From: Schistosoma haematobium
Lineage: Eukaryota; Platyhelminthes; Trematoda; Strigeidida; Schistosomatidae
Assembly: GCF_000699445.3 (NCBI RefSeq)
Contig: NC_067198.1
Location: forward strand, 5,862,801 to 5,926,800
Reading direction: 5' to 3'
DNA length: 64,000 bases
A model generated the notes under the pieces. That model was not told where the DNA came from. It saw only the letters and a program-made list of their open reading frames with translations, and did not search any database. Shown here one piece after another: positions 1 to 36,764 of the stretch. The stretch's first letter is position 1; each line of letters begins with the position of its first letter. The position numbers were made by a program, and so were the translations under genes.

Positions 1-1129
1 TTCCTGAATCTTTCAGTCAACAGTAATTTCTAATAATAATAGTTATCTCAGTTTTATTAGTGTATTTCATTTCTTTGTTATTGATATTAATTTTTCTATA
101 TTTTGCAACTATCATTCAGAATCATCATCAGGATGTACACTGTACTGTATATATTATTAACGCAGCTGAAATAGTGAGTAACGTAACGTTATTTGAATAT
201 GGAAATAGAACCCAGTGTACTAAGCTTACAGTAGGTTGATAATTTTCCATTTCAATAGTTGAACTCATAAGTCGATCTAAACTAGATCATAATTGAAACT
301 TCGAAGCATTGGATAGCCGTTTCATCTTAGTATGATGGAACTTCTCAGCAGTGCACATCCACGATCTTACACATGGAACTTGAACTCAGGACTTTCGGTC
401 TTGTGCGCGAACGTTTAGATAGACTCATCAATTCAACTATTAAAATTAATACAATCTTCATAAATTCACATTCTGATAATTTCCCATTTAATAACATAAT
501 AACAATTTGTATGTGGGATTTAAAAATTTAAAGATATACTTGGATTCAGATGAGGTTAGGAATGTGAAACTGACGCTTATGTTCTAATTCTTAGGATTAT
601 CTTTACTTTATCAGTGATATTTACAAAAACATGTTTAGTGTTTTGGTCTCAATTAATATATGCAGACAAATTTTAACGTAAGAATAAATTTGTTATAACG
701 TGTGGTTTTATACTCTTGGTTCTTTGTTTTTCACCCCGTCACCTATTGTTATGACGCTCTGTTTTAATTCGTCTAATGTTATAACGGTTGGGTTTCCACG
801 TTTATACGTATGGGACGTTAATTTACCTTAGACGAATATTTACACTAGATTCCCTCCCAGTGTCTATTCTACAGGACTTTAACACAACTCAGATCAAGAA
901 CACGTGATTAGGTTTACTAGAACATAAATATATTTCGATACCAAAAACCGACACAATCCAACAGCAATGAACAATCAATGAGTAGTTCACTGAACGACTT
1001 TATTTATTAAATATACCATCGCGTTATCCACTTAGTTACTGAGTCTTGATAGCTACTAGCTTATGCAATGGATTGAAGTTTAAATTTATTTTGTATTATT
1101 TGTTTGTATCTTCCTATAAATGTTTAGGA
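1..1129. other. No gene recognised; one repeat copy inside
   Basis: Apart from the SINE-like copy at 250-475 I see no coding exon here. The sequence is AT-rich with many stops in every frame. A block around 670-1080 is slightly less AT-rich and could be an old LTR or other repeat, but I found no second copy of it in the window. Confidence 0.4.
250..475 (-). repeat. Hammerhead-bearing SINE-like repeat, copy A
   Basis: Read on the minus strand, this copy has a tRNA-like head with a degraded B-box (around 400-412), then a hammerhead-like block (306-352), then the shared 3' part. The same order recurs at 1640, 2745, 18260, 22195 and 41690. The ribozyme core reads CUGAGAA where CUGANGA is needed, so the invariant G8 is lost and this copy should not self-cleave. 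The family resembles schistosome Sm-alpha, a pol III-type SINE known to carry hammerheads. Confidence 0.7.
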
Positions 1130-2214: not shown

Positions 2215-2323
2215 TGCATCTGATCAATCCTGGGTTCGAAACTCGGAGGTCTAATTCAACGCTCGGGCTCTCCGATGTGTATGCTTATGTATGAGAATCT
2301 CAGAAGTTCTCGGACCTCAACAA

Positions 2324-2520
2324 TCTTCACAATTCTATACTGTTATTCTAACCAGTTTATTTCTTTGATCTCGATTATATCCTGGAGAGTATATACCTAT
2401 TGAATTTTGTGCATTCACTTATCCAGAATGATTCTTAGGGGTTAGGAGAAATGTTACCACAATATTCAAAATACGGTAAGACCATAAATTATGGAAGACA
2501 TTTGAGCGATGCCAAAGTGA
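2324..2520 (+). repeat. About 200-bp repeat, direct copy of 8641-8850
   Basis: The segment from CACAATTCTATACTGTTA through ACCTATTGAATTTTG to the ATACGGTA region matches 8641-8850 in the same orientation with many substitutions. Both copies lie inside the left arm and are mirrored in the right arm (about 9736-9945 and 16070-16266). They precede a SINE-like copy in one case and follow one in the other, so this may be a flanking module of the SINE-like family. Confidence 0.6.
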
Positions 2521-2744
2521 CAGTATGAATGTCCATTTACTAACTGACAAGGACTAAATGAGAGTTATCAAACAGTGTGAGGAATTGTATTCATGATTTA
2601 CGGTTGATGGTTGTGGTTAGGAATTAGATTTAGTGTTTTCATCACGAACTGAGATCAGCTGAAATGCCAGAACGCTATTTAAGCAAACGGACGAATGAAT
2701 TTCATACCAAAATCCAAGACCTCATAATCTATCATGTGATTATT

Positions 2745-3190
2745 TTGATAGTTGAATTCATGAGTCAACTGATGATAGATCACCATGGAAAACTAGGAAG
2801 CACTGAACAATCGATTCGTCCTAGTATAAGACTACTCAGCAGTGCACATTCACGATCCAACTCCTGGGATCCAAACACAGGACATTCAGTCTCTCAAACG
2901 AATGCCTAATCTCTAGACCAATGAGCCGGTCAGTATCCGACGATGTTAATATCTAACCTCAACCAATCCACAGAATTGCTCGACCATCTTCCATTGCACT
3001 GAGATAGACACCTGTTTCTACCCGAAACGGATTGGCTCCATTGGTCACGGCTTCTCACTAGAACTTCAAGAATTCCCTCACGAATCTAGTCACTAATGAG
3101 CACATGCTGATCATTAGTATGAGGTTGTGAAAATCATTAACATTTTGATTGAGATCATGAATCGAGGGATATCAGACCACCACTGAAGTA
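2745..3190 (-). repeat. SINE-like repeat copy C plus start of a tandem copy
   Basis: This is the fullest minus-strand copy (2745-3140). It holds the 3' part, a decayed hammerhead (2800-2845; core CUGAGUA and GAAU, so inactive), the tRNA-like head and a further 5' part. It is followed at 3143-3190 by the 3' end of another copy in the same orientation, so the family can sit in tandem. Confidence 0.7.
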
Positions 3191-3345
3191 TGTTTATGTT
3201 TTTATTTAAGTATAATCTGTCTGACTGTATTAATGGTAGCAACATTTAAATGTATCCATAGAATGTGTTTCACTAACTCATTGAATAGTAATTAAATTGA
3301 CCAGTTATCATAAACAACAACAATTTATGATTGTTAAATAAACAA

Positions 3346-3351
3346 TTTATT
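3346..3351 (-). terminator. Poly(A) signal AATAAA, left cysteine-rich gene
   Basis: Mirror of the signal at 15239-15244, just past the left gene's stop codon. Confidence 0.5.
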
Positions 3352-6300
3352 TACGGTTGATTACACAATGTTATTCCATGTGAAATGTACAACATTGAAT
3401 GAAGCAATAATGGCGCACAACTAAACAGTATAATAACATATACAACAGTTTTATGATAAGAGGAAGAATAAGAGGAAGAATAGAATAGAATAGGGATAAG
3501 TGTACAAAAGAAGAACACTGATGAATGGACCACTGGAATTTATACAAATGATATATGTATATATATAAACAATCTGGAAAATTATGCAACACAATCTACA
3601 ATACGGATAGATAATCCAATCAATCAGTGATTGTGTTCACTATGGATTCATTTGATGATGATTGGATATGAATAATGATTCCTGTATGAATTGTGCATGA
3701 CATACAGTGTCAGCTTAACTCTCTCCCTACTTTATACCCATGTACTAGAAATGCTAACAATGTGAAGTGTTACACAAATAAGCTTGTGTAGATTTGATCG
3801 TCTATTCCTTATCTATTCGAGTTACACAATCTTTGTCACGAATCAAAAAGGGAGTTTCCAGTAGCTTCATTGAAACTGACAGGAAGTGTCTTACTATATG
3901 TTATTCAATGATATGATAATGCTATCTGACCAATACACTACAAGACTCTCCTCAACTACATACAGGAATATTCTATCCACTTTAACAATAATAATATTCA
4001 CAAATTTTAATTACTAATATTATATAACATGCAGTGTGTACGTGTGAGTGTGTGTGAATACTTCACTTACCACAACATACTTTCCCACCAGTCATTTGTT
4101 CCATCGTATCATTGTATATTACAGTTGTATTCATGACACCACTAAATAGTGAGCACCATCTTGGACGATCCTGTATAAATACCAAACAAATTTATGTTGA
4201 ATGCAATGAGGTTGATTTTTGTTTCTCTGTACACTTTCAGAAAATTCTTAATAAGCAGTAATAAATGAAATGATATGGTTTGTGAATCGTTCACTTGAAT
4301 GAACATAAAGTGTGTATTTTGAGTGTGGGTGCAGTGACACTGTCCCGGTGGCCAGATCGATTCAGGTGCTCTCCTTGGGTAGCAACACCTGGAGCATCCG
4401 ACCTGAATGGCTGATCCCCAACACAATGAAGCAACGTCAGAGGATGCAGTCACATGTTAGTCGGCGACCAACAATTGCTTCACACACCATTTGTTTCGTT
4501 CAGGATCCTGGAGTCCATGTGAACCATTGGTTTGGAATACTGGTTTTCCAACTCCCTAGGTGGACATTTCGTGTCCACCAACTTATCACTGTTTAACCTT
4601 GAGAATATTATCGATTGGTTACCTGTCTTAGTCTTAAAATATTTGGATACATCTCGAATTTCATCATGGATATATATTGCTGACATCATTAGAGGAAATT
4701 CCAACTGATAAGCAAATCAATGTTCCTAATAATCTCAATACTCATATTTGATTTTTAAAGAGATCTCAAAGTATAATTACACTATTTTGCAATAAACTAC
4801 ATATCTAGAATGTTTCTTAGTAACTATCTTATTTTTGAGCTACAGTTTCCTGTAGATTTCTGTTCGTCGACTTTCACTTCAGTATATTGCATTATACTAC
4901 TAACTAACATTCAGTAACCAGTTCAACACGTTCGAAAATAAATCTATCTCGAGGCCAAATCAGTCATTGCAACCAACAAAATAATTTTGATACGCTCTCA
5001 AGGTTTATGCATTCAACTCGATAACCGTTCGACTTTCTATAGCATCAAATCTGTTTAGTGGATTTCGATACCTGACAGTCACATTTGTTTGTAATGTCTC
5101 TTGTATATAAGCATCACTTATAACATAAATATCAATAAATGATTGTATAATAATATTCAATTAAAACGATGAACAGAATATACTGAACTTACAACAATAT
5201 ATGAAAACGACATGCAGTAGGGATTGAGTTCACATTCGCTAGCACAATTTATTGTAGCATTGACTTCTCTGAGAAAATAGGTACTGAGGAATTGATTGTT
5301 CGGTAATCCTGGCTTCACTACATAATATGTTTGATTACATTGCATGAGTTTTGTACAAGTGGAACATGGGAGACACGGTGACATGATAACTCCATAGTTT
5401 TTAATATCATCTAGAACAGAAAAGTGTTATGAGGTCTTACATCGTTGTACACACAGTTGTCGTATGAAACAAATAGAGACTGTGGAGGAAATTATTTGTT
5501 AGTTAATGTTTAAATTAAATACGAGTCCGTGTTTCGCATATTGCTGACGCTATCGCGATCCATATACACAAAACTAACCTTCGCATCCGAAACAAGTTTG
5601 TACAACCACTCTCACTAGGTTGGCCAACGATCAAGGAGTGAGTATACAGCTCAACTTCGATTAAACTCATTTCATTCAAAATTATTTCAACTATCTTCTA
5701 ATTTCTTACACATTTGTCTCTTGATCCTGACGTAATCGCTACGATACTGGTCTATGAGTGAGTGAACAAACTTGACTCAAATACAAGTAACCGGTCATAT
5801 AGAATTGTTGTCCCATCCATATATCATTGTGTACACATGCCGAATTGAAGCAGAATCACTACATGTTTACTGTAATAGACCGTTTATGAAAAATATTGCT
5901 GTCCGAAACCAAAGTGAATACATGTTCTTGTAAGCTAGTCATTTCCTTTTAATACACTCTGTGTGATCAATTCAAAATACAAATGTTCCATTTGTTTAAC
6001 TAAGCTTAATCATTGAAACTTACTACAACATATTCTTGTTCCATATTCGAATGCGGTACGATTGTATAATTCACCAGTTAGATTGATCGGCTTTGAATAT
6101 AAGGTGCATTGTGTTGGTAAATCCTAATAAAAGTGTCAAAATAGAAAGCACATTTTATGAAGCGAATAATAATCTGAATGATTTATGGAGAAGATGAGAT
6201 TACTTTGTTTTAACCATAATGTTGAATGAAAGTTTCAAGGTGTCCTGGAATTCGACGCTTTCATCCACAGTGTGAGATGTATACAGTTGATCTGATTAAA

Positions 6301-6689
6301 ACAATAAGACACAATTCACATTCTACATCGCACTCATTCATTTACCCAATGCGGTGCATTCATGTGTTTAAACAAAAACATGGAAATTCATTTCAACTTA
6401 CAGTTGGACTTGTGTATGAATAACATAGAGGATTCGATAGACATTCATTTAAGCAAGATGATGAAGTTTGGACCATACTGAGAGTACAGTTGTTTATAAA
6501 TGACTGATTTGGTTGTCCCCATCCACCTATCCATTTTGAATAATTACAAGGCATAATTTTACTACAGTTCGCACACCATTTACATGTCGATAACACATTG
6601 ATACTTGATCTTGAATTTGTTTGTGTGTAATAACAAGCGAGAAAGTGAATTGAAATGTATGCATGAATAATGAATAAATGTTTAATCAT
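3351..6689 (-). CDS. Secreted or surface cysteine-rich protein, two PAN/apple-like repeats (left copy)
   Basis: Five exons on the minus strand: 6689-6402, 6123-6024, 5410-5193, 4170-4071 and about 3532-3351, all with GT-AG introns. Exon 1 starts at ATG 6689 and encodes a hydrophobic signal peptide (first about 20 residues). Two homologous units follow, each split by a phase-0 intron. Each has the spacing C-x2-C-x2-C-x5-C, then C-x3-C-x5-C with NP before the last Cys, then a 100-nt exon ending in a Cys-Cys pair. About nine N-glycosylation sequons are present. The C-C-NP-C pattern recalls PAN/apple adhesion domains, but this is not proven. The last exon gives a hydrophobic tail. The predicted protein is identical to the right-arm copy. 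Confidence 0.7.
4312..4605 (-). repeat. Partial copy of the about 520-bp GC-richer repeat (R2)
   Basis: Read on the minus strand it contains the family landmarks CACCTAGGGAGTTGGAAAAC, GGTTCACATGGACTCCAGG, ATCCTGA and TGCTCCAGGTGT. It is an internal part lacking both ends. It lies in intron 3 of the left cysteine-rich gene. Fuller copies are at 20280, 45006, 48070 and 52798. Confidence 0.7.
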
Positions 6690-6776
6690 TTGGAGTAAGT
6701 TAAAATGTATGAGGGATTAGTATATAAATAATTTGAGATCTAACTGAACAATGATGATTTCGTTGAATTTTAAGCG

Positions 6777-6813
6777 TTTATATAGTTGGATGTCATGAGC
6801 ACACTGACCAATC
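6777..6813 (-). promoter_or_regulatory. Core promoter of left cysteine-rich gene
   Basis: Mirror of the right-arm promoter: TATATAAA on the minus strand at 6784-6777 and GATTGG at about 6813-6808. The two genes diverge from promoters about 5 kb apart, with the spacer between them. Confidence 0.6.
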
Positions 6814-6834
6814 AGATAAGATGGATCCTGCCTT

Positions 6835-6900
6835 TTAAGTGCTTCCAGGTTTGCATTTGTAGTCTTTCATTGAGCTATTCATGATCTCAATCAAAACCCA
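6835..6900 (+). repeat. SINE-like fragment near the left gene promoter
   Basis: Only the 3' part of the SINE-like family (AAGTGCTTCCAGGTTT through ATGATCTCAATCAAAACC) is present, just upstream of the left gene's core promoter. It is mirrored at 11691-11756. Confidence 0.6.
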
Positions 6901-7188
6901 CATAATTACACTAAAAGCTGAAATACAATACAAATAATAGAATACAAATAATTGTTAAACATGGTAGTTGCAATTGATGAATAGAATACATTTACTAATG
7001 AATATTGTGTATATGAGGTGAAGTGGAATGGTGTCATTCAATTGTATCTCTGGTAACATCAATTGTATTCTCTTTTATTTGTTTAAGTGAACTCATTGAA
7101 TTCACCTCAACTTCATATTACCTATTTTGTATTTATTGTTCACAAATACAAAATTTCCTATTAGTGATATACAGTTTTGTAAGTTCAC

Positions 7189-7254
7189 TTCATTCATTCA
7201 TTCATTCATTCATTCATTCATTCATTCATTCATTCATTCATTCATTCATTCATT
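7189..7254 (+). repeat. (TTCA)n microsatellite
   Basis: About 16.5 uninterrupted TTCA units, 500 bp upstream of the left cysteine-rich gene. The mirrored array at 11332-11401 has one unit more. Confidence 0.95.
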
Positions 7255-7856
7255 GAAGTTCTCACAGGATTGTCACATTCTGTTTGTACTTGCGTTATGA
7301 TGACTGCTGTAATAAAATGCATTCAGCTTTCATTTGTAATTTCACGCTTGAATTAAATAAATGCGTATAATTGTGCATTGTATATGATGGAACAATGGAA
7401 CTAGTACAATACACAATTTCCCTATTGTGTTGACTGAATACAATCAAATGAAACAGTTCTCGTTCTGGGTTACCTTGTGAATGGTAGTTAAGGAAGACGG
7501 AACAATAAGCAGAAGTGAATAGTTGTTAAGAGATGAAAGGAGAGAAGCTGTGAGTTGGGTATGTGAACGACAGTTGAATGCATCAAATGTTTCATTGTTC
7601 CTCAACCAATACTTACAATACAATCTATAAGAGTAATGCATTACTGTATCTCATTCATTGCTTAATAAATTGTTCCATTATTCCACAATACTACACTTCG
7701 TTGTGATTTCCTTGGGTAATTACAGTTATATGACCTTAAAATGAATGAAATTCAAAACAATGACAACAAGCAACTATTTCAAGCAATTGAAAGAAATTCA
7801 TTCAAGTATATAAATGTTCTTACAGCTAAGTGTGAAACCCAATAAGTAAGTAATTA

Positions 7857-7943
7857 AGTGAGTAAGTGAGTGAGTGAGTGAGTGAGTGAGTGAGTGAGTG
7901 AGTGAGTGAGTGAGTGAGTGAGTGAGTGAGTGAGTGAGTGAGT
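7857..7943 (+). repeat. (GTGA)n microsatellite
   Basis: About 20 GTGA units with small imperfections at the left edge. The mirrored array at 10643-10729 has the same length. Confidence 0.95.
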
Positions 7944-8443
7944 ACTAGGAATTGACTGTGCGTTAACGATACATGCAGTGTTGTATGATGCTTAGGCAAA
8001 TTACCCACATTCCTTAAACAATGAAAAGAAATTAAAATGCTCGATAACAATGTGATTGAAGGATAATATGTTCATTCTCTGCCAAACTGCTTTGAAGAAT
8101 ATCTTCAAAATGTATTGAAACCAGTGAATTTAAACAGTGTTCGCAACGTATAAGTGTAGTTACTATTTCGTAACGAAATAATCGACCTCTGTTCGCTACT
8201 ACTTAAATCTGAAGAAGTAACTAAATCGGAATACATATATACAAATATAAATACAGTGGTTGGTTGTTGCTTTTGTAAACAAATGTGATTATGATCAGTG
8301 GAATGTTTCAGGGATAATTTGTGAATATATTATTATGAAAATGGGGACTTGTAGAGATTGTAGTATTTTAACAGGTGGATCGACAAATAGATGTAAGAGA
8401 GACCATTATCGAAAACCAATCGTGGATCGATTGAAACTAGACA

Positions 8444-8640
8444 TCAATACCTTTGTATGTATGCTCAGTGGTCCAGGGTTTAGGCGTCCACATGAGATAC
8501 AGAATATTCTGAATTTGAGTCCCGTGTGTGATTTGAAGCATGCGCACAACGGGAGAGTCCCATATTACGATTAAACGGACATCCAATGCTTCCATCTTTC
8601 CAGTGGTGCTCTTGCATCGGTCGATTAATGATCTCAATCA
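8444..8640 (+). repeat. SINE-like repeat copy D (decayed)
   Basis: The tRNA-like head (CTCAGTGGTCCAGGGTTTAGG) is followed by a much decayed ribozyme block (about 8542-8590, core GGGAGA) and the 3' part ending in TGATCTCAATCAAAAC. It cannot be an active ribozyme. Confidence 0.6.
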
Positions 8641-8850
8641 AAACTCAACGATTTCCACAACCCTATACTGTTAATCTAAATAGTTTACTTTCTCGATCTC
8701 AATTACATCCCGTAGAGTAAATACCTATTGAATTTTGTACATTCACTTCTTTTTCACAATTATCATCCATAATGATACTTAGTGGTTGGAATGAATAATA
8801 TCACAATAGTGAGAATACGGTATCACTATACTTGATGGACGACATGTGAT
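8641..8850 (+). repeat. Second copy of the about 200-bp repeat
   Basis: Diverged direct copy of 2324-2520, directly downstream of the SINE-like copy at 8444-8640. Mirrored at about 9736-9945 in the right arm. Confidence 0.6.
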
Positions 8851-9078
8851 TAAAGCGTTGTCAAACTCCGAATATCTGTGGCATCTTCATTATATTCAGT
8901 CTCATAAATCCAGTCACATTGTTATAATTGAATATACTTCTTATAGTTTTTTGAAGGTTCTGATTATAGGCAGAGAATATGATTATATATTCTTCATCAG
9001 TTATATCACTATTACCATAGATATTCATGTCATATGAAAATGGAAATGATAGTGGTTTCGAACTTAAGCAAATTGTGG

Positions 9079-9507
9079 CTTGTAGTACTGTTATGTTGTA
9101 TATTCGCTTTTCAGACAGTCGACTTTTTTAACATATCTGGATACTAGATTACATTGACATCATTCATCAGCTAGTTAGTACGGTCAAAACACCAGATCAT
9201 CAAACAGAACTCAACAACAAACTTAGGATTCAAAGCACAGGAAGTTTGAATCAGTTAAAGAAGCTGTACATTTGGATTGAGTGTGTTGATCAGAGTGTAA
9301 ACAAAATGTAGATTATGTACAATACAAATCTAAAGTGTAGTTATGACGAATTTCTGTCATCTGGAATCATTTTGATCCTAATGTTAACGGTGTGGCGTAA
9401 AATTTATGTTTGTGATGTGATATTCACTGTCGTTTCCATACCATCTTCAATTCTTTATTGGTTGAGTAAGCATTTCGAAAGTTATCACATTGTGGGTTGA
9501 CGTCAAC
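9079..9507. other. Unique spacer of the inverted repeat
   Basis: These 429 bp separate the arms and occur once. No gene is recognised; one 61-codon frame (9315-9500) has no family features. The spacer ends inside a perfect 26-bp palindrome (9489-9514) that runs into the right arm. Confidence 0.85.
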
Positions 9508-9514
9508 CCACAAT
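9489..9514. promoter_or_regulatory. 26-bp perfect palindrome containing TGACGTCA
   Basis: ATTGTGGG, TTGACGTCAA and CCCACAAT together form a perfect palindrome centred at 9501/9502. It contains the CRE/ATF consensus TGACGTCA. It spans the junction between spacer and right arm, and its outer eight bases repeat the last bases of the left arm (ATTGTGG at 9072-9078). It may be a binding site or only a footprint of how the inversion formed. Confidence 0.5.
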
Positions 9515-9945
9515 TTGCTTAAGTTCGAAACCACTATCATTTCCATTTTCATATGACATGAATATCTATGGTAATAGTGATATAACTGATGAAGAATATA
9601 TAATCATATTCTCTGCCTATAATCAGAACCTTCAAAAAACTATAAGAAGTATATTCAATTATAACAATGTGACTGGATTTATGAGACTGAATATAATGAA
9701 GATGCCACAGATATTCGGAGTTTGACAACGCTTTAATCACATGTCGTCCATCAAGTATAGTGATACCGTATTCTCACTATTGTGATATTATTCATTCCAA
9801 CCACTAAGTATCATTATGGATGATAATTGTGAAAAAGAAGTGAATGTACAAAATTCAATAGGTATTTACTCTACGGGATGTAATTGAGATCGAGAAAGTA
9901 AACTATTTAGATTAACAGTATAGGGTTGTGGAAATCGTTGAGTTT

Positions 9946-10142
9946 TGATTGAGATCATTAATCGACCGATGCAAGAGCACCACTGGAAAGATGGAAGCAT
10001 TGGATGTCCGTTTAATCGTAATATGGGACTCTCCCGTTGTGCGCATGCTTCAAATCACACACGGGACTCAAATTCAGAATATTCTGTATCTCATGTGGAC
10101 GCCTAAACCCTGGACCACTGAGCATACATACAAAGGTATTGA
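9946..10142 (-). repeat. Mirror of SINE-like copy D
   Basis: Right-arm counterpart of 8444-8640. Confidence 0.6.
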
Positions 10143-10642
10143 TGTCTAGTTTCAATCGATCCACGATTGGTTTTCGATAATGGTCTCTCTTACATCTATT
10201 TGTCGATCCACCTGTTAAAATACTACAATCTCTACAAGTCCCCATTTTCATAATAATATATTCACAAATTATCCCTGAAACATTCCACTGATCATAATCA
10301 CATTTGTTTACAAAAGCAACAACCAACCACTGTATTTATATTTGTATATATGTATTCCGATTTAGTTACTTCTTCAGATTTAAGTAGTAGCGAACAGAGG
10401 TCGATTATTTCGTTACGAAATAGTAACTACACTTATACGTTGCGAACACTGTTTAAATTCACTGGTTTCAATACATTTTGAAGATATTCTTCAAAGCAGT
10501 TTGGCAGAGAATGAACATATTATCCTTCAATCACATTGTTATCGAGCATTTTAATTTCTTTTCATTGTTTAAGGAATGTGGGTAATTTGCCTAAGCATCA
10601 TACAACACTGCATGTATCGTTAACGCACAGTCAATTCCTAGT

Positions 10643-10729
10643 ACTCACTCACTCACTCACTCACTCACTCACTCACTCACTCACTCACTCACTCACTCAC
10701 TCACTCACTCACTCACTCACTTACTCACT
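10643..10729 (+). repeat. (TCAC)n microsatellite
   Basis: Mirror of 7857-7943 with the same unit number. Equal length is notable for an array this long and argues that the arms are very recently identical or homogenised. Confidence 0.95.
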
Positions 10730-11331
10730 TAATTACTTACTTATTGGGTTTCACACTTAGCTGTAAGAACATTTATATACTTGAATGAATTTCTTTCAAT
10801 TGCTTGAAATAGTTGCTTGTTGTCATTGTTTTGAATTTCATTCATTTTAAGGTCATATAACTGTAATTACCCAAGGAAATCACAACGAAGTGTAGTATTG
10901 TGGAATAATGGAACAATTTATTAAGCAATGAATGAGATACAGTAATGCATTACTCTTATAGATTGTATTGTAAGTATTGGTTGAGGAACAATGAAACATT
11001 TGATGCATTCAACTGTCGTTCACATACCCAACTCACAGCTTCTCTCCTTTCATCTCTTAACAACTATTCACTTCTGCTTATTGTTCCGTCTTCCTTAACT
11101 ACCATTCACAAGGTAACCCAGAACGAGAACTGTTTCATTTGATTGTATTCAGTCAACACAATAGGGAAATTGTGTATTGTACTAGTTCCATTGTTCCATC
11201 ATATACAATGCACAATTATACGCATTTATTTAATTCAAGCGTGAAATTACAAATGAAAGCTGAATGCATTTTATTACAGCAGTCATCATAACGCAAGTAC
11301 AAACAGAATGTGACAATCCTGTGAGAACTTC

Positions 11332-11401
11332 AATGAATGAATGAATGAATGAATGAATGAATGAATGAATGAATGAATGAATGAATGAATGAATGAATGA
11401 A
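11332..11401 (+). repeat. (TGAA)n microsatellite
   Basis: Mirror of 7189-7254 with one additional 4-bp unit, which accounts for the main length difference between the arms. Confidence 0.95.
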
Positions 11402-11777
11402 GTGAACTTACAAAACTGTATATCACTAATAGGAAATTTTGTATTTGTGAACAATAAATACAAAATAGGTAATATGAAGTTGAGGTGAATTCAATGAGTT
11501 CACTTAAACAAATAAAAGAGAATACAATTGATGTTACCAGAGATACAATTGAATGACACCATTCCACTTCACCTCATATACACAATATTCATTAGTAAAT
11601 GTATTCTATTCATCAATTGCAACTACCATGTTTAACAATTATTTGTATTCTATTATTTGTATTGTATTTCAGCTTTTTAGTGTAATTATGTGGGTTTTGA
11701 TTGAGATCATGAATAGCTCAATGAAAGACTACAAATGCAAACCTGGAAGCACTTAAAAGGCAGGATCCATCTTATCT

Positions 11778-11814
11778 GATTGGTCAGTGTGCTCATGACA
11801 TCCAACTATATAAA
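11778..11814 (+). promoter_or_regulatory. Core promoter of right cysteine-rich gene (CCAAT and TATA)
   Basis: GATTGG (reverse CCAAT) lies at 11778-11783 and TATATAAA at 11807-11814, 88 bp before the start codon. The spacing is that of a standard pol II promoter. A SINE-like fragment ends about 20 bp upstream of the CCAAT box. Confidence 0.6.
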
Positions 11815-11901
11815 CGCTTAAAATTCAACGAAATCATCATTGTTCAGTTAGATCTCAAATTATTTATATACTAATCCCTCATACATTTTAACTTACTCCA
11901 A

Positions 11902-14900
11902 ATGATTAAACATTTATTCATTATTCATGCATACATTTCAATTCACTTTCTCGCTTGTTATTACACACAAACAAATTCAAGATCAAGTATCAATGTGTTA
12001 TCGACATGTAAATGGTGTGCGAACTGTAGTAAAATTATGCCTTGTAATTATTCAAAATGGATAGGTGGATGGGGACAACCAAATCAGTCATTTATAAACA
12101 ACTGTACTCTCAGTATGGTCCAAACTTCATCATCTTGCTTAAATGAATGTCTATCGAATCCTCTATGTTATTCATACACAAGTCCAACTGTAAGTTGAAA
12201 TGAATTTCCATGTTTTTGTTTAAACACATGAATGCACCGCATTGGGTAAATGAATGAGTGCGATGTAGAATGTGAATTGTGTCTTATTGTTTTAATCAGA
12301 TCAACTGTATACATCTCACACTGTGGATGAAAGCGTCGAATTCCAGGACACCTTGAAACTTTCATTCAACATTATGGTTAAAACAAAGTAATCTCATCTT
12401 CTCCATAAATCATTCAGATTATTATTCGCTTCATAAAATGTGCTTTCTATTTTGACACTTTTATTAGGATTTACCAACACAATGCACCTTATATTCAAAG
12501 CCGATCAATCTAACTGGTGAATTATACAATCGTACCGCATTCGAATATGGAACAAGAATATGTTGTAGTAAGTTTCAATGATTAAGCTTAGTTAAACAAA
12601 TGGAACATTTGTATTTTGAATTGATCACACAGAGTGTATTAAAAGGAAATGACTAGCTTACAAGAACATGTATTCACTTTGGTTTCGGACAGCAATATTT
12701 TTCATAAACGGTCTATTACAGTAAACATGTAGTGATTCTGCTTCAATTCGGCATGTGTACACAATGATATATGGATGGGACAACAATTCTATATGACCGG
12801 TTACTTGTATTTGAGTCAAGTTTGTTCACTCACTCATAGACCAGTATCGTAGCGATTACGTCAGGATCAAGAGACAAATGTGTAAGAAATTAGAAGATAG
12901 TTGAAATAATTTTGAATGAAATGAGTTTAATCGAAGTTGAGCTGTATACTCACTCCTTGATCGTTGGCCAACCTAGTGAGAGTGGTTGTACAAACTTGTT
13001 TCGGATGCGAAGGTTAGTTTTGTGTATATGGATCGCGATAGCGTCAGCAATATGCGAAACACGGACTCGTATTTAATTTAAACATTAACTAACAAATAAT
13101 TTCCTCCACAGTCTCTATTTGTTTCATACGACAACTGTGTGTACAACGATGTAAGACCTCATAACACTTTTCTGTTCTAGATGATATTAAAAACTATGGA
13201 GTTATCATGTCACCGTGTCTCCCATGTTCCACTTGTACAAAACTCATGCAATGTAATCAAACATATTATGTAGTGAAGCCAGGATTACCGAACAATCAAT
13301 TCCTCAGTACCTATTTTCTCAGAGAAGTCAATGCTACAATAAATTGTGCTAGCGAATGTGAACTCAATCCCTACTGCATGTCGTTTTCATATATTGTTGT
13401 AAGTTCAGTATATTCTGTTCATCGTTTTAATTGAATATTATTATACAATCATTTATTGATATTTATGTTATAAGTGATGCTTATATACAAGAGACATTAC
13501 AAACAAATGTGACTGTCAGGTATCGAAATCCACTAAACAGATTTGATGCTATAGAAAGTCGAACGGTTATCGAGTTGAATGCATAAACCTTGAGAGCGTA
13601 TCAAAATTATTTTGTTGGTTGCAATGACTGATTTGGCCTCGAGATAGATTTATTTTCGAACGTGTTGAACTGGTTACTGAATGTTAGTTAGTAGTATAAT
13701 GCAATATACTGAAGTGAAAGTCGACGAACAGAAATCTACAGGAAACTGTAGCTCAAAAATAAGATAGTTACTAAGAAACATTCTAGATATGTAGTTTATT
13801 GCAAAATAGTGTAATTATACTTTGAGATCTCTTTAAAAATCAAATATGAGTATTGAGATTATTAGGAACATTGATTTGCTTATCAGTTGGAATTTCCTCT
13901 AATGATGTCAGCAATATATATCCATGATGAAATTCGAGATGTATCCAAATATTTTAAGACTAAGACAGGTAACCAATCGATAATATTCTCAAGGTTAAAC
14001 AGTGATAAGTTGGTGGACACGAAATGTCCACCTAGGGAGTTGGAAAACCAGTATTCCAAACCAATGGTTCACATGGACTCCAGGATCCTGAACGAAACAA
14101 ATGGTGTGTGAAGCAATTGTTGGTCGCCGACTAACATGTGACTGCATCCTCTGACGTTGCTTCATTGTGTTGGGGATCAGCCATTCAGGTCGGATGCTCC
14201 AGGTGTTGCTACCCAAGGAGAGCACCTGAATCGATCTGGCCACCGGGACAGTGTCACTGCACCCACACTCAAAATACACACTTTATGTTCATTCAAGTGA
14301 ACGATTCACAAACCATATCATTTCATTTATTACTGCTTATTAAGAATTTTCTGAAAGTGTACAGAGAAACAAAAATCAACCTCATTGCATTCAACATAAA
14401 TTTGTTTGGTATTTATACAGGATCGTCCAAGATGGTGCTCACTATTTAGTGGTGTCATGAATACAACTGTAATATACAATGATACGATGGAACAAATGAC
14501 TGGTGGGAAAGTATGTTGTGGTAAGTGAAGTATTCACACACACTCACACGTACACACTGCATGTTATATAATATTAGTAATTAAAATTTGTGAATATTAT
14601 TATTGTTAAAGTGGATAGAATATTCCTGTATGTAGTTGAGGAGAGTCTTGTAGTGTATTGGTCAGATAGCATTATCATATCATTGAATAACATATAGTAA
14701 GACACTTCCTGTCAGTTTCAATGAAGCTACTGGAAACTCCCTTTTGATTCGTGACAAAGATTGTGTAACTCGAATAGATAAGGAATAGACGATCAAATCT
14801 ACACAAGCTTATTTGTGTAACACTTCACATTGTTAGCATTTCTAGTACATGGGTATAAAGTAGGGAGAGAGTTAAGCTGACACTGTATGTCATGCACAAT

Positions 14901-15239
14901 TCATACAGGAATCATTATTCATATCCAATCATCATCAAATGAATCCATAGTGAACACAATCACTGATTGATTGGATTATCTATCCGTATTGTAGATTGTG
15001 TTGCATAATTTTCCAGATTGTTTATATATATACATATATCATTTGTATAAATTCCAGTGGTCCATTCATCAGTGTTCTTCTTTTGTACACTTATCCCTAT
15101 TCTATTCTATTCTTCCTCTTATTCTTCCTCTTATCATAAAACTGTTGTATATGTTATTATACTGTTTAGTTGTGCGCCATTATTGCTTCATTCAATGTTG
15201 TACATTTCACATGGAATAACATTGTGTAATCAACCGTAA
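11902..15239 (+). CDS. Secreted or surface cysteine-rich protein, two PAN/apple-like repeats (right copy)
   Basis: Exons are 11902-12189 (phase 0 end), 12468-12567 (phase 1), 13181-13398 (phase 0), 14421-14520 (phase 1) and 15058-15239 (stop TAA). Exons 2 and 4 are both exactly 100 nt and end in CC codons (GTRICC, GGKVCC). Exons 1 and 3 both end in a C-x3-C-x5-C block (CLNECLSNPLC, CASECELNPYC). The gene therefore arose by tandem duplication of an exon pair. The total is about 295 codons. The last exon could instead start at 15017 in another frame, ending at 15219; both readings give a hydrophobic C-terminus, so membrane or GPI anchoring is likely but its form is open. Function unknown; a host-interface or adhesion role is only a guess. 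Confidence 0.72.
13985..14279 (+). repeat. R2 repeat, mirror copy in right arm
   Basis: Right-arm counterpart of 4312-4605, in intron 3 of the plus-strand cysteine-rich gene, ending about 140 bp before exon 4. Confidence 0.7.
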
Positions 15240-15244
15240 ATAAA
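15239..15244 (+). terminator. Poly(A) signal AATAAA, right cysteine-rich gene
   Basis: AATAAA overlaps the last base of the stop codon of the 15058-15239 reading. If the alternative exon frame (stop at 15219) is used, the signal lies 20 bp past the stop. Mirrored at 3351-3346 in the left arm. Confidence 0.5.
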
Positions 15245-15399
15245 TTGTTTATTTAACAATCATAAATTGTTGTTGTTTATGATAACTGGTCAATTTAATT
15301 ACTATTCAATGAGTTAGTGAAACACATTCTATGGATACATTTAAATGTTGCTACCATTAATACAGTCAGACAGATTATACTTAAATAAAAACATAAACA

Positions 15400-15845
15400 T
15401 ACTTCAGTGGTGGTCTGATATCCCTCGATTCATGATCTCAATCAAAATGTTAATGATTTTCACAACCTCATACTAATGATCAGCATGTGCTCATTAGTGA
15501 CTAGATTCGTGAGGGAATTCTTGAAGTTCTAGTGAGAAGCCGTGACCAATGGAGCCAATCCGTTTCGGGTAGAAACAGGTGTCTATCTCAGTGCAATGGA
15601 AGATGGTCGAGCAATTCTGTGGATTGGTTGAGGTTAGATATTAACATCGTCGGATACTGACCGGCTCATTGGTCTAGAGATTAGGCATTCGTTTGAGAGA
15701 CTGAATGTCCTGTGTTTGGATCCCAGGAGTTGGATCGTGAATGTGCACTGCTGAGTAGTCTTATACTAGGACGAATCGATTGTTCAGTGCTTCCTAGTTT
15801 TCCATGGTGATCTATCATCAGTTGACTCATGAATTCAACTATCAA
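15400..15845 (+). repeat. Mirror of SINE-like copy C
   Basis: Right-arm counterpart of 2745-3190. The ribozyme-like block lies at 15745-15790 and has the same disabling changes as the left copy. Confidence 0.7.
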
Positions 15846-16375
15846 AATAATCACATGATAGATTATGAGGTCTTGGATTTTGGTATGAAATTCATTCGTC
15901 CGTTTGCTTAAATAGCGTTCTGGCATTTCAGCTGATCTCAGTTCGTGATGAAAACACTAAATCTAATTCCTAACCACAACCATCAACCGTAAATCATGAA
16001 TACAATTCCTCACACTGTTTGATAACTCTCATTTAGTCCTTGTCAGTTAGTAAATGGACATTCATACTGTCACTTTGGCATCGCTCAAATGTCTTCCATA
16101 ATTTATGGTCTTACCGTATTTTGAATATTGTGGTAACATTTCTCCTAACCCCTAAGAATCATTCTGGATAAGTGAATGCACAAAATTCAATAGGTATATA
16201 CTCTCCAGGATATAATCGAGATCAAAGAAATAAACTGGTTAGAATAACAGTATAGAATTGTGAAGATTGTTGAGGTCCGAGAACTTCTGAGATTCTCATA
16301 CATAAGCATACACATCGGAGAGCCCGAGCGTTGAATTAGACCTCCGAGTTTCGAACCCAGGATTGATCAGATGCA

Positions 16376-17309
16376 ACAGAGTGAGTGGTCGGTAGATCTC
16401 TGTGACCGCCTTAGTTGGCTTGAAGGGTTGCAGCCACTATCTAGCAGCGCCTCGAGGAGGCCTCAGGTAAGATTTTACTGCGGCGTAATATGAACCCTCC
16501 ATTTACACATACACGGTAAATGAATGATTCCAGTAGATTTATTAAATCACCCAACTAGTATTCACATTTGCTTGTGGATCGTCGGCGTAGTGAGAAAATA
16601 TTGCAAACCGAAAATGTACAGAATAAATTAATGCGTGCTCATACAACACTCAATCCACGTTCTTGTCTACAAAACAAGACTGTATTCAATGTATGTCAAT
16701 GCGTTCCTTTGGAATAATTTGACGTAAAACAGTAGGCTCACAGTTTGTACAATGTACGTTTTCACAACTTAACGAGTAATGAGATTACGAGTAAATAATT
16801 ATAATTTGGTTTCAAGGTTGATGCATACTATGAAGTGAATACGAATACCAAGTGATCCATATCTCAATCAGACATAGTAACTGATCATTTTTCATTGCCG
16901 ATAAACTTCAGAATGCTAACATGACACGCTTACGAATATTGTGAAATACAAACTAGTTTCCAGATGACTTACAAAAAGTTTATTAATACGAAATGAAAGT
17001 TTTGAGTCCATTGATAAAGAAGTGATGATCGAATCCTTGAGAAGCACTTTACAGACAGCAGAAAGATTTATGAACCAATGAATCCTGATTATTCATTGTC
17101 ATATGGACTGATTCTAGTCGTGAAATTCAACCGGAAACATTAGAGTAGTAGTGTGGTGTGTGCTACTGACGTCGATAGGTATAAGTTGTATGCATCATCA
17201 GTCGAGAGTGAAATACCTGCCAGCAGAAGGTTAGAAAGATAGAAGAATAAAGATCGAGAATGGATAATGTTTGGTGTGTAAATGAAGGAACAGTCAATTG
17301 GAATGAATC
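16376..17309. other. No gene; outer flank of the inverted repeat
   Basis: Unique sequence begins at 16376 after the right arm. Its first 80 bases are GC-richer (GTGAGTGGTCGGTAGATCTC onward) and look like part of another repeat cut by the arm boundary. From 17140 a repeat shared with 62455-62640 begins. I see no exon. Confidence 0.4.
17140..17309 (+). repeat. Repeat shared with 62455-62640
   Basis: GTGGTGTGTGCTACTGACGT, GTGAAATACCTGCCAGCAG, AAGGTTAGAAAGATAGAAG and CAATTGGAATGAA have diverged counterparts in the same order at 62455-62640. It runs directly into an R2 3' end, so both may be parts of one composite element. Confidence 0.55.
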
Positions 17310-20792: not shown

Positions 20793-21209
20793 AATCCGAA
20801 TGCATCACGATGATTATCTTTTTCATAATCATTGATATTTACCGTGTAATATGTATCAGTTAGTATATTACTTTCAAAAGATTGTTATGTAATACTATAA
20901 AATGAAGGCAATGCATAATATAAACTGAAATTACTATATCATATGAATATGTATAACAGTCAAGATTGGAATGATATTCATCTACACAACTTCGATAGGC
21001 AAAGACGATTTTGCTATGGTAGAAATCAATGAATTCCTTATCAATTAATCTTGGTTTCTCTGAAATATAACAATTAATGAGGATATAAATTAAATCATGT
21101 ACAACTTGTATACATGATACATAGATTGGTTCACAACGGGAATTAAGTCAAACAGAAAGTATTATATACGGATGAAGAATAAGTAAGTGATAACCTCTAG
21201 GATCTATTT

Positions 21210-22194: not shown

Positions 22195-22560
22195 CAGTAG
22201 TTGAGATCATGAATAAATTGAAGCTAGACCACCATGGAAAGCCTGGAAGTACTGGGCGGCCATTTCGCCCTATTGTGGGACTCCTCAGCAGTGCGCATCG
22301 ATCCAGGACCTAGCAGTCTCACGCGCGAGCGCTTAACCACCAGACCACTGAACCGACTGTCAGCCAACGGTGTTAATGTCTAACTTCAACAAATCCACGA
22401 AATTGAGCGACACATCCACTATTGTCTTCAGTGAGTTACTCTCACAACAGACCCGGTTGGACTCCACTAGTCACTGCTTCGCACTAGAACTCCAGGATAT
22501 ACCTCTTAAAGCCAGTCACTGGTGAGCAGATGTTGATTAGTATTAGTGTTAGGTCGAGAT
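22195..22560 (-). repeat. SINE-like repeat copy F
   Basis: Full minus-strand copy. The ribozyme block (22248-22294) keeps CTGAGGA, stem II (GTCC/GGGC with one G-U pair) and GAAA. The cleavage triplet reads GCC instead of GUC, so cutting should be lost by a single change. A tRNA-like head with a decayed B-box follows at 22305-22370. Confidence 0.75.
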
Positions 22561-26913: not shown

Positions 26914-33970
<7,057 letters not shown>

Positions 33971-34030: not shown

Positions 34031-34655
34031 CAAATGGTTCAAATGGTTGTGGACGGATAGAAGAAGCTTTCGCCTAACGGGCTTCCGTGTGCAGCAGCAG
34101 TGGATCACCAATACTTTCAAGCAGGAATCTAGATATATTAACGATAATAAAAGAAAAAAGAAATCGGTAAATCATAGTGAGATATTATCCCTAATCCTTA
34201 AGAATATGTCAAGTTCCCTCTTAAAGGACTCCCAGAAAGTCGCTTTGACTAGCCCGGCCGGCAGCGAATTCCAGCATTTAATAACTCTTAGGGAGTAGAA
34301 GTTGTGTCTACAGTCCGTTGTGCTATGTTGTGTCTCCAGTTTCTGGATGTTACCCCTTAGTTTTGTGTTGGAGTTAGACTTAAGTAGGTGTTTAAGGGGA
34401 TGTCCAGAAGTGTTAATGATACTGTAAGCCGTTAGGTCACCTCTAGGACGACTAAACTCTAATGGGTAAAGGTTAAGTGATTGGAGGCGCTCTTCATAAG
34501 GCTTGGATTTGTGTCCCCGAACTGATTTCGTGGCTTGCCTTTGGATACGCTCCAGAGTGTCTTTATTTTTTGGATTGAGGGAGGAAATACTATGTTTCCG
34601 TATCCTAAATGGGGACGAATAAAACTGTTGAAGATCACGCGGAAAGTTATACCGT
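34031..34655 (-). mobile_element. Older CR1-like retrotransposon, 3' part (interrupted)
   Basis: Reverse complement of the last about 620 bp of the CR1 element at 34656-36764, diverged from it. It begins with the 3'-terminal repeat CAAATGGTTCAAATGG at 34031. Its missing upstream part continues at 36765-36978, so the plus-strand copy was inserted into this one. Its 3' end lies 60 bp upstream of the V-ATPase start codon, in the same orientation as that gene. Confidence 0.85.
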
Positions 34656-36764
34656 CTTATGTGCTCTTATGTGCTACAGACCATTCAGTTCCTCAAACGG
34701 TTCCCAAAAGCTTCAAGCCACCTACAGTAATCAAGAACCGTACCCTTCGCCTCCTAAGCCGCAAACGGCACTGTTGGGCGGAATACAAACGAACTAATAA
34801 CGATGGAGCGTATAGGCAATACAAACATATCAGGAACACATGCACGAAGGCTATAAGAGAAGACAGGCTTCAGTACCAAACAAAGCTTATGGACAAATTC
34901 GCCTCTAACCCTAGAAGCCTATTCCGTTATGCAGCCTCTCTTCGTCAAGCCAAAACAGGAGTTTCTCAACTGCTAGGTCTTAACGGCCCGACCAACAACG
35001 ATGGCGACGCCGCTAACCTTCTGGCGGCCCATTACTCTCAAACATTTCAACCGGCTGACATCAACTTTATTGACGACAGTCTCATCTCCAACTCCACAGG
35101 ACTTTCTGAAGTGGACCTAAGCGCTGACTTGGTGTTCCGGAAATTGCAGCACTTAAGACTTGACACTTCTCCTGGCCCGGATATGGTTCATCCTGCCATA
35201 CTGAGGAGGCAGCCTCAATCCTGGCAACGCCGCTTAGCGTGATGTTTTCACACTCGCTTAGCCGAGGCAAATTACCGGAAAACTGGAAGTTGGCTCACAT
35301 CACACCAATTTTCAAAGGTGGTCGACGCAATGAACCTTCAAGTTATCGGCCGGTGGCTCTTCTGTCATTACCTTCAAAACTCATGGAGTCCCTGATATGC
35401 GACGGTTTAAATGACTATCTACTGTCCTTAAATTTCTTCTCACCCCAACAGCATGGTTTCAGGAAGGGTTACTCTTGTATAACCAACCTGCTGACTGCGG
35501 TGGACAGATGGACAAGCATCCTCGATTGCAAGGGAAAGGTTGATGTCATTTACCTTGATTTCTCAAAAGCTTTTGATAAGGTTAACCACTTGTGTCTTAT
35601 CAACAAGCTCAAACGACTAGGTATCAAACCACCTCTAATCGATTGGCTTACTTCATACCTAAAAAATCGACACTTTAAGGTTAGGGTTAATTTCACTTTA
35701 TCTCAGGCTATGGAATGTCCTAGTGGGGTCCCCCAGGGCTCAGTACTAGGGCCTCTTCTCTTCTTGATCTACATAAATGATCTTCCTCAACAGGTAACGT
35801 CAGACTTACTACTTTTTGCCGACGACGTGAAACTTTGGAGAGAGATACGCAACCAAGACGATACACAGGCACTTCAGGAGGATCTGACGCGACTTCAAAG
35901 TTGGGCAGACGACAACGGACTTACCTTTAACACTTCAAAGTGTAAAGTAGTCCATCTGCGACATGTCGCAAACTACAGTTACAACTTAGGAAACTCCTCT
36001 CTAGTAGTATCCCAAGTCGAAAAAGATTTAGGAGTCCTGGTGCCCCATGACTTAAAGTCTTACGTTAACTGTGACAAAAATGCCTTCCGAGCAAACCTTG
36101 CACTGGTAACGTTGAAGCGCATTTTTGGACAGTTTGACGGACGAACTTTCCATACAATCTTCAATAGTTTCATCCGTCCCCATTTAGAGTACGGAAACAT
36201 AGTACTCCCCCCCTCACTCCATAAGGACAAGGTCATTTTGGAGCGTATCCAACGGCGAGCCACGAAATCAGTTCGAGGACTCAAATCTAAGCCTTACGAA
36301 GAACGCCTCCGTTCACTAGACCTTTACCCACTAGAATATAGGCGTCTTAGAGGTGATTTACTAATGGCTTATAGTATTCTTAACACTTCTGGACATCCTC
36401 TTAAACACCTACTTAAGCTTAGTTCGAATAATAATCTAAGGGGTAACACCCAGAAACTGGAAACACAACCTAGCAAGACGGAATGTAGACACAACTTCTA
36501 CTCCTTAAGAGTTGTCAAAAGCTGGAATTCGCTGCCGGCCGAGCTAGTCCAAGCGACTTCTCAGGAGTCCTTCAAGAGGCAACTTGACCTATTCTTAAGG
36601 ACCAAGGACAGCATCACATTATGATTTACCAATTTCTTTTCCTTTTTTATTGTTAACATACCTAGGTTCCTGCCTGGAAGACTTGGTGATCCCCTGCTAC
36701 TAGACACGGAAGCCTGTTAAGCGAAAGCTTCTTCTATTCCGTCCACAACCATTTGAACCATTTG
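34656..36764 (+). mobile_element. CR1-like non-LTR retrotransposon, 5'-truncated
   Basis: It contains the linker region and the reverse transcriptase of a CR1-clade element, ending in the short repeat ATTTGAACC ATTTG. The endonuclease domain is absent, so the copy is 5'-truncated. The linker frame (to 35242) and the RT frame differ by one base: the shift lies near 35203-35210, in a GAGGAGG stretch. It is inserted in opposite orientation into an older CR1 copy. Confidence 0.9.
35239..36624 (+). CDS. CR1-type reverse transcriptase, long ORF
   Basis: This 461-codon ORF encodes most of the reverse transcriptase. Residues about 105-115 hold YLDFSKAFDKV, about 160-170 hold GVPQGSVLGPLLF and about 191-196 hold LFADDVKLW with the catalytic Asp pair. 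A thumb region follows, then the C-terminal block with SFIRPHLEYGN and SWNSLPAEL found at the end of CR1 ORF2. All three catalytic aspartates remain. Homologous sequence continues upstream in the same frame to about 35206, so the Met at 35239 is not a real start. With no endonuclease it cannot move on its own. Confidence 0.92.
   Translation: MMFSHSLSRGKLPENWKLAHITPIFKGGRRNEPSSYRPVALLSLPSKLMESLICDGLNDYLLSLNFFSPQQHGFRKGYSCITNLLTAVDRWTSILDCKGKVDVIYLDFSKAFDKVNHLCLINKLKRLGIKPPLIDWLTSYLKNRHFKVRVNFTLSQAMECPSGVPQGSVLGPLLFLIYINDLPQQVTSDLLLFADDVKLWREIRNQDDTQALQEDLTRLQSWADDNGLTFNTSKCKVVHLRHVANYSYNLGNSSLVVSQVEKDLGVLVPHDLKSYVNCDKNAFRANLALVTLKRIFGQFDGRTFHTIFNSFIRPHLEYGNIVLPPSLHKDKVILERIQRRATKSVRGLKSKPYEERLRSLDLYPLEYRRLRGDLLMAYSILNTSGHPLKHLLKLSSNNNLRGNTQKLETQPSKTECRHNFYSLRVVKSWNSLPAELVQATSQESFKRQLDLFLRTKDSITL

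Follow-up and report, generated by a model that had tools for sequence, protein, structure and literature searches.

A near-perfect 14-kb palindrome in the Schistosoma haematobium assembly: a possible recent inverted duplication trimmed at its centre

The 64-kb stretch of Schistosoma haematobium DNA analysed here (the window, to which positions refer unless stated otherwise) contains a 14-kb palindrome. Its arms, 2215-9078 on the left (+) and 9508-16375 on the right (-), are reverse complements of each other by self-BLAST and by global alignment. The preferred reading is a recent, real inverted duplication, followed by a one-sided deletion at its centre, probably on a non-sex chromosome; judged from the sequence, we give it a probability of about 0.5. 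That the structure is real, all possible forms taken together, appears likely on the same evidence.

Only one long inverted match is present in the window: 2215-9082 pairs with 16375-9504 at 99.898% identity over 6,873 columns. The second-longest self-match, also inverted, covers 611 columns at 84%. This minor pair (34031-34635 and 36157-36764) overlaps a reverse-transcriptase reading frame (35164-36624) and is, by its look, ordinary retroelement sequence. The preliminary description had claimed a near-perfect palindrome whose arms differ by one TTCA unit and two single-A changes, and the global alignment (ends 9078/9508) returns exactly these three indels, with zero substitutions: one A at 3845 (A5 in the left arm, A4 in the right), one A at 6912^6913 (A4 left, A5 right), and one TTCA unit at 7188^7189. 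The TTCA array has 16 units in the left arm (7184-7254, +) and 17 in the right copy (11332-11406). The (GTGA)n arrays, said to be equally long, indeed have 19 units each (7857-7943, +, on the left; 10643-10729 on the right). The inner ends can be set in two ways. With 9078/9508, the spacer measures 429 bp and 6,863 aligned bases contain no substitution; with 9082/9504, the spacer measures 421 bp and the 6,867 bases contain a single mismatch, C/G at 9079/9507, four bases off the inner end.

Among the 40 scored of 16,691 first-look candidates in the genome, a full-length arm occurs at two loci, both of them described here; the further matches listed represent fragments of dispersed repeats. Within the 124 kb that surround the palindrome, inverted pairs with 150 bp or more at 90% identity or more are limited to the palindrome itself and a single pair of 184 bp. 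With near-identical inverted arms, a short spacer, and a complete predicted gene in each arm, the locus has the features of a long gene-bearing palindrome. Elsewhere in the window, two type I hammerhead ribozymes (1726-1771, +; 22249-22294, -) exceed the Rfam gathering score; they probably belong to the short repeats with hammerheads that schistosomes are known to carry. A reading frame for subunit B of the vacuolar ATPase is located at 31961-32527 (-).

The predicted genes occupy 4063-6689 in the left arm (-; exons 6402-6689, 6024-6123, 5193-5410, and 4063-4170, stop included) and 11902-14528 in the right arm (+; exons 11902-12189, 12468-12567, 13181-13398, and 14421-14528). Both have four exons with intact frames and GT/AG splice sites, and their coding sequences are identical. 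Lying on opposite strands, they both point away from the palindrome centre. The predicted protein of 237 aa has a hydrophobic, signal-like N-terminus (judged by eye) and two PAN/apple-type repeats, 34% identical to each other. Its score of 26.0 bits with Pfam PAN_1, for a cut-off of 21.4, assigns it to the PAN/apple type. Four of the 23 candidates in a protein search reach E <= 0.001, and all four are from Schistosoma. The S. bovis protein is 92% identical over the full length, has the same terminal residues, and scores 30.0 bits with PAN_1; that of S. rodhaini is 77% identical, differs at its C-terminal end and, with 18.9 bits, stays under the cut-off. The 237-aa S. bovis model fits the four exons of the arm gene. 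The S. haematobium database protein (P0004, 133 aa) runs into intron 2 and stops there; its sole match is a sub-threshold one to PAN_3. Among the titles listed by a search for work on schistosome apple-domain proteins, none concerned this gene.

Genes or fragments of PAN type form a small local family around the palindrome, as far as sequence similarity tells. Two diverged relatives with E-values of 5e-6 or better are found at C4:5,841,806-5,842,015 (L073, -) and C4:5,853,623-5,856,796 (L033, -). A diverged, exon-like relative lies in the right flank, at C4:5,883,735-5,883,857 (window 20935-21057, -), with an E-value of 3.6e-7 against an exon of a left-flank paralogue and of 0.034 against the S. 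bovis protein. Furthermore, 132-221 (+) shows weak, exon-like similarity to the arm gene (E 0.56), and may be a relic in the opposite orientation. The left gene copy is on the same strand (minus) as the three clearest relatives, and the right copy is not.

The spacer (9083-9503 in its 421-bp form) matches a single place in the assembly at E <= 0.001, so that it is single-copy sequence between the arms, as in fold-back duplications. A 26-bp perfect palindrome (9489-9514, centre 9501|9502) spans the join of spacer and right arm. It is the longest perfect palindrome without spacer in the window, the runner-up measuring 20 bp. In 60 simulated 64-kb sequences, which kept the base-to-base transition frequencies of the window, the longest perfect palindrome also measured 20 bp, so that 26 bp is beyond the simulated range. 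We read it as a remnant of an original symmetric centre.

Going rightward from 9501|9502, the mirror symmetry is kept for 13 bases, then exactly 417 bases are skipped, and then the right arm follows. The whole centre is thus that of a palindrome without spacer from which 417 bp are missing on one side. At the skip, CAACCCACAAT is connected with CAAGCCACAAT, with a perfect microhomology of 7 bp and 10/11 identity overall; such a short inverted homology at the inner join is also a mark of fold-back duplications. When this sequence was joined at random 200,000 times, 13-200 bases from the centre and 50-1500 apart, microhomology of at least 7 bp arose at a rate of 0.0007. Two 11-mers are involved, ATTGTGGCTTG at the inner end of the left arm (9072-9082, +) and ATTGTGGGTTG near the end of the spacer (9489-9499, +), the reverse copy of the latter (9504-9514) marking the proposed deletion join. 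Matches of at least 10/11 are found nowhere else in the window than at 9072 and 9489 (direct) and 9504 (inverse). A one-sided deletion from a symmetric centre is the simplest reading of this arrangement: one such event would account for the spacer, for the 26-bp palindrome, and for the only mismatch between the arms, as 9079/9507 is where the two 11-mers differ.

The duplication would have started with a break or a stalled fork near 9501, from which synthesis turned back on its own template and produced a symmetric, spacer-less palindrome with arms of ~7.3 kb. In a second step, as the join sequence suggests, 417 bp would have been lost on one side between the near-identical 11-mers, so that the one-sided 421-bp spacer and, of the former centre, the 26-bp palindrome remained. 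One-sided losses of this kind make long palindromes more stable. The outcome would be a doubled dose of the gene for a predicted secreted protein. The intact frames and splice sites of both gene copies, their identical coding sequences, and the full-length likeness to the S. bovis protein speak for this reading. Conversion from arm to arm may help to keep the arms alike and would not be required at such an age. In mice, a perfect palindrome of 15.4 kb was altered in ~35% of the offspring, according to a review (PMC8701086). That review also reports that, in cells, 93% of 118 palindrome events were deletions, mostly small and at the junction, and that small central deletions breaking the symmetry increase stability ~25-fold. 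In yeast without Mre11 or Sae2, large palindromic duplications can start from inverted repeats of 5-9 bp (PMC7999016).

The two outer edges are not equivalent. A dispersed repeat of ~209 bp (16273-16481, -) runs across the right outer join, 16375|16376, and the same repeat is cut in the left arm, where its truncated copy (2215-2317, +) stops at 2215. A search with the right-edge repeat gave 26 matches, two of which are this locus; the other 24 represent 22 elements, after two second pieces of elements already counted were set aside together with the two self matches. In all 22, the alignment has bases on either side of 16375|16376; among the 14 aligned rows displayed (13 elements), a single one carries a deletion at the very join. 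For the left-edge repeat, none of the 12 other matches extends left of 2214. To judge from these alignments, with the repeat continuing across the right join and stopping at 2215, only the left of the two outer edges is broken, and sequence was lost or exchanged there. The outer flanks next to the arm end have no common bases that could explain the left join. The evidence on which arm is the original conflicts: the repeat marks the left edge as broken, whereas the strand of the neighbouring relatives favours the orientation of the left gene copy. Trimming of the left edge after the duplication would look no different and would reconcile the two.

A break on the left alone is also what would be expected if the left arm were false. 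In that case, nanopore fold-back reads would have given a hairpin end (A-S-A') on a rightward contig, which scaffolding or gap closing would then have joined falsely, at 2215, to another contig. We regard such an assembly artefact as possible and somewhat unlikely. Shae.V3 was built from nanopore reads with Canu, Medaka, purge_haplotigs, three scaffolding steps, gap closing, and two more polishers, and the several scaffolding rounds and the gap closing offer occasions for a false join. The libraries, described in the paper to which the assembly paper refers for its reads, were made both by ligation and by the rapid method from native DNA of a pool of 50 worm pairs, and the consulted part of that description mentions no amplification step (PMC7918261), a point in favour of a real structure. 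Fold-backs make up ~0.55-0.6% of nanopore genomic reads, in one example with ~2 kb between the halves (PMC12870357), and ligation libraries are worse than rapid ones in this respect (PMC13141652). The arm length would be on the scale of a read. Moreover, read correction would render a false arm identical, and Canu correction of pooled nanopore reads can make arms that are only near-identical look identical. On the contrary, an artefact requires two false joins within 14 kb, in a window with zero N bases and equally none in the surrounding 124 kb, and the fold-back point would have to hit the longest perfect palindrome of the window by chance. To our knowledge, no assembler product gives a precise one-sided loss of 417 bp with a 7-bp microhomology.

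A real palindrome born in one step, with its spacer already in place, is a doubtful alternative to the symmetric-centre model. A 3' end would fold back, pair with the inverted 11-mer ~420 bases off, and be extended, by fold-back or by serial template switching, without passing through a spacer-less stage. Human inverted duplications set a precedent: all 21 of the 21 sequenced joins have single-copy spacers (766-70,466 bp), and 13 of them have 2-8 bp of inverted microhomology (PMC3907307), to be compared with the 421 bp and the 7 bp (10/11 overall) observed here. Nevertheless, the 26-bp palindrome beside the join would then be a separate coincidence or call for another round of snap-back. An ancestral right outer join would further require that an exchange between the arms had flipped the spacer, a step which the symmetric-centre model makes superfluous.

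The absence of substitutions sets a 95% upper bound of 4.4e-4 per site on the divergence of the arms, equivalent to ~27,000 generations at 8.1e-9 per site and generation, the rate used for S. mansoni (PMC8346512); the bound, computed with 6,867 sites (6,863 gives the same at this precision), assumes that the arms evolve apart and that the consensus is correct, and conversion or read correction loosens it. The preliminary description had left a choice between very young arms, arms kept alike by conversion, and an assembly product, one form of which was two haplotypes placed side by side. That the arms are very young or converted agrees with the lack of any substitution in 6,863 bases. An old palindrome homogenised by gene conversion between its arms, as on mammalian sex chromosomes, would also show near-identical arms, and we nevertheless find it very unlikely: the scaffold does not have the size of a sex chromosome, the microsatellites nearly agree as well, with (GTGA)19 in both arms and 16 versus 17 TTCA units, and an age of less than ~27,000 generations is sufficient on its own. 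The window is part of a 48.3-Mb scaffold, the third in size of Shae.V3 (L50 = 3). Because two scaffolds, of 89 and 93 Mb, exceed it, linkage to Z or W, suggested earlier, finds no support and is unlikely, a judgement made from scaffold sizes.

The two-haplotype origin does not hold up well either, as ~24-36 SNPs would be expected between the arms. This expectation derives from a divergence of 0.35-0.52%, which we calculated from the 1.4-2.1 million SNPs that field worms each show relative to this reference (PMC8846543), and the argument may be weaker if the laboratory line varies less or if read correction hides differences. A transposon with long inverted ends was rejected, since by eye the flanks lack a target-site repeat, the left end falls within a dispersed repeat, and the 40 scored of 16,691 candidates include no further full arm copy. 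Chance is ruled out by the 6.9-kb length of the arms.

The gene-bearing palindromes of the mammalian X and Y chromosomes have near-identical arms, a short spacer, and a gene copy per arm, all of which are shared by the schistosome structure. Most of them are larger than its 14 kb; the present one is located on an autosome-sized scaffold and is without sign of long-term maintenance. With human fold-back inverted duplications (PMC3907307), it shares the inverted copies, the short single-copy spacer, and the short inverted homology at the inner join. Those described in that source are large and mostly beside terminal deletions, whereas the schistosome duplication is 7 kb long and internal to a chromosome scaffold. 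The centre-break transgene palindromes of mice, studied by Akgun, Zhou, Cunningham, Lewis, Jasin and others according to PMC8701086, are likewise long palindromes with a small one-sided deletion at a symmetric centre. They were observed over generations, whereas the spacer-less stage in the schistosome is inferred from sequence alone. The inverted amplicons formed in yeast by ODIRA (PMC10766183) also have their inner join at short interrupted inverted repeats. These are inverted triplications with repeats within ~100 bp of each other, in contrast to two copies and ~420 bp here; an interstitial triplication with an inverted centre copy was not found, as the 40 scored of 16,691 candidates contain two full-length copies.

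This kind of structure is already known. Among the open-access titles listed in literature searches, none concerned such a structure in schistosomes, although one paper on schistosome W elements contains the word palindrome once (PMC8490949); most subscription papers lie outside those searches. Work tracing the two-step birth of palindromes appears to come mainly from transgenic mice, yeast, and cancer. If false, the palindrome would mean that the reference genome of this major human parasite contains an erroneous gene duplicate as well as a misjoin, and it would serve as a test case for detecting further errors of this type. If real, it would represent a natural two-step birth of a long palindrome in an animal parasite, and the gene for a predicted secreted protein would be doubled. 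A more far-reaching view, which we hold to be improbable as a whole, is that of a fresh autosomal gene palindrome, just past its symmetric birth and centre deletion, in a cluster of genes for secreted PAN proteins, with arms that recombine and convert; schistosomes might thus multiply and homogenise host-facing families outside their sex chromosomes.
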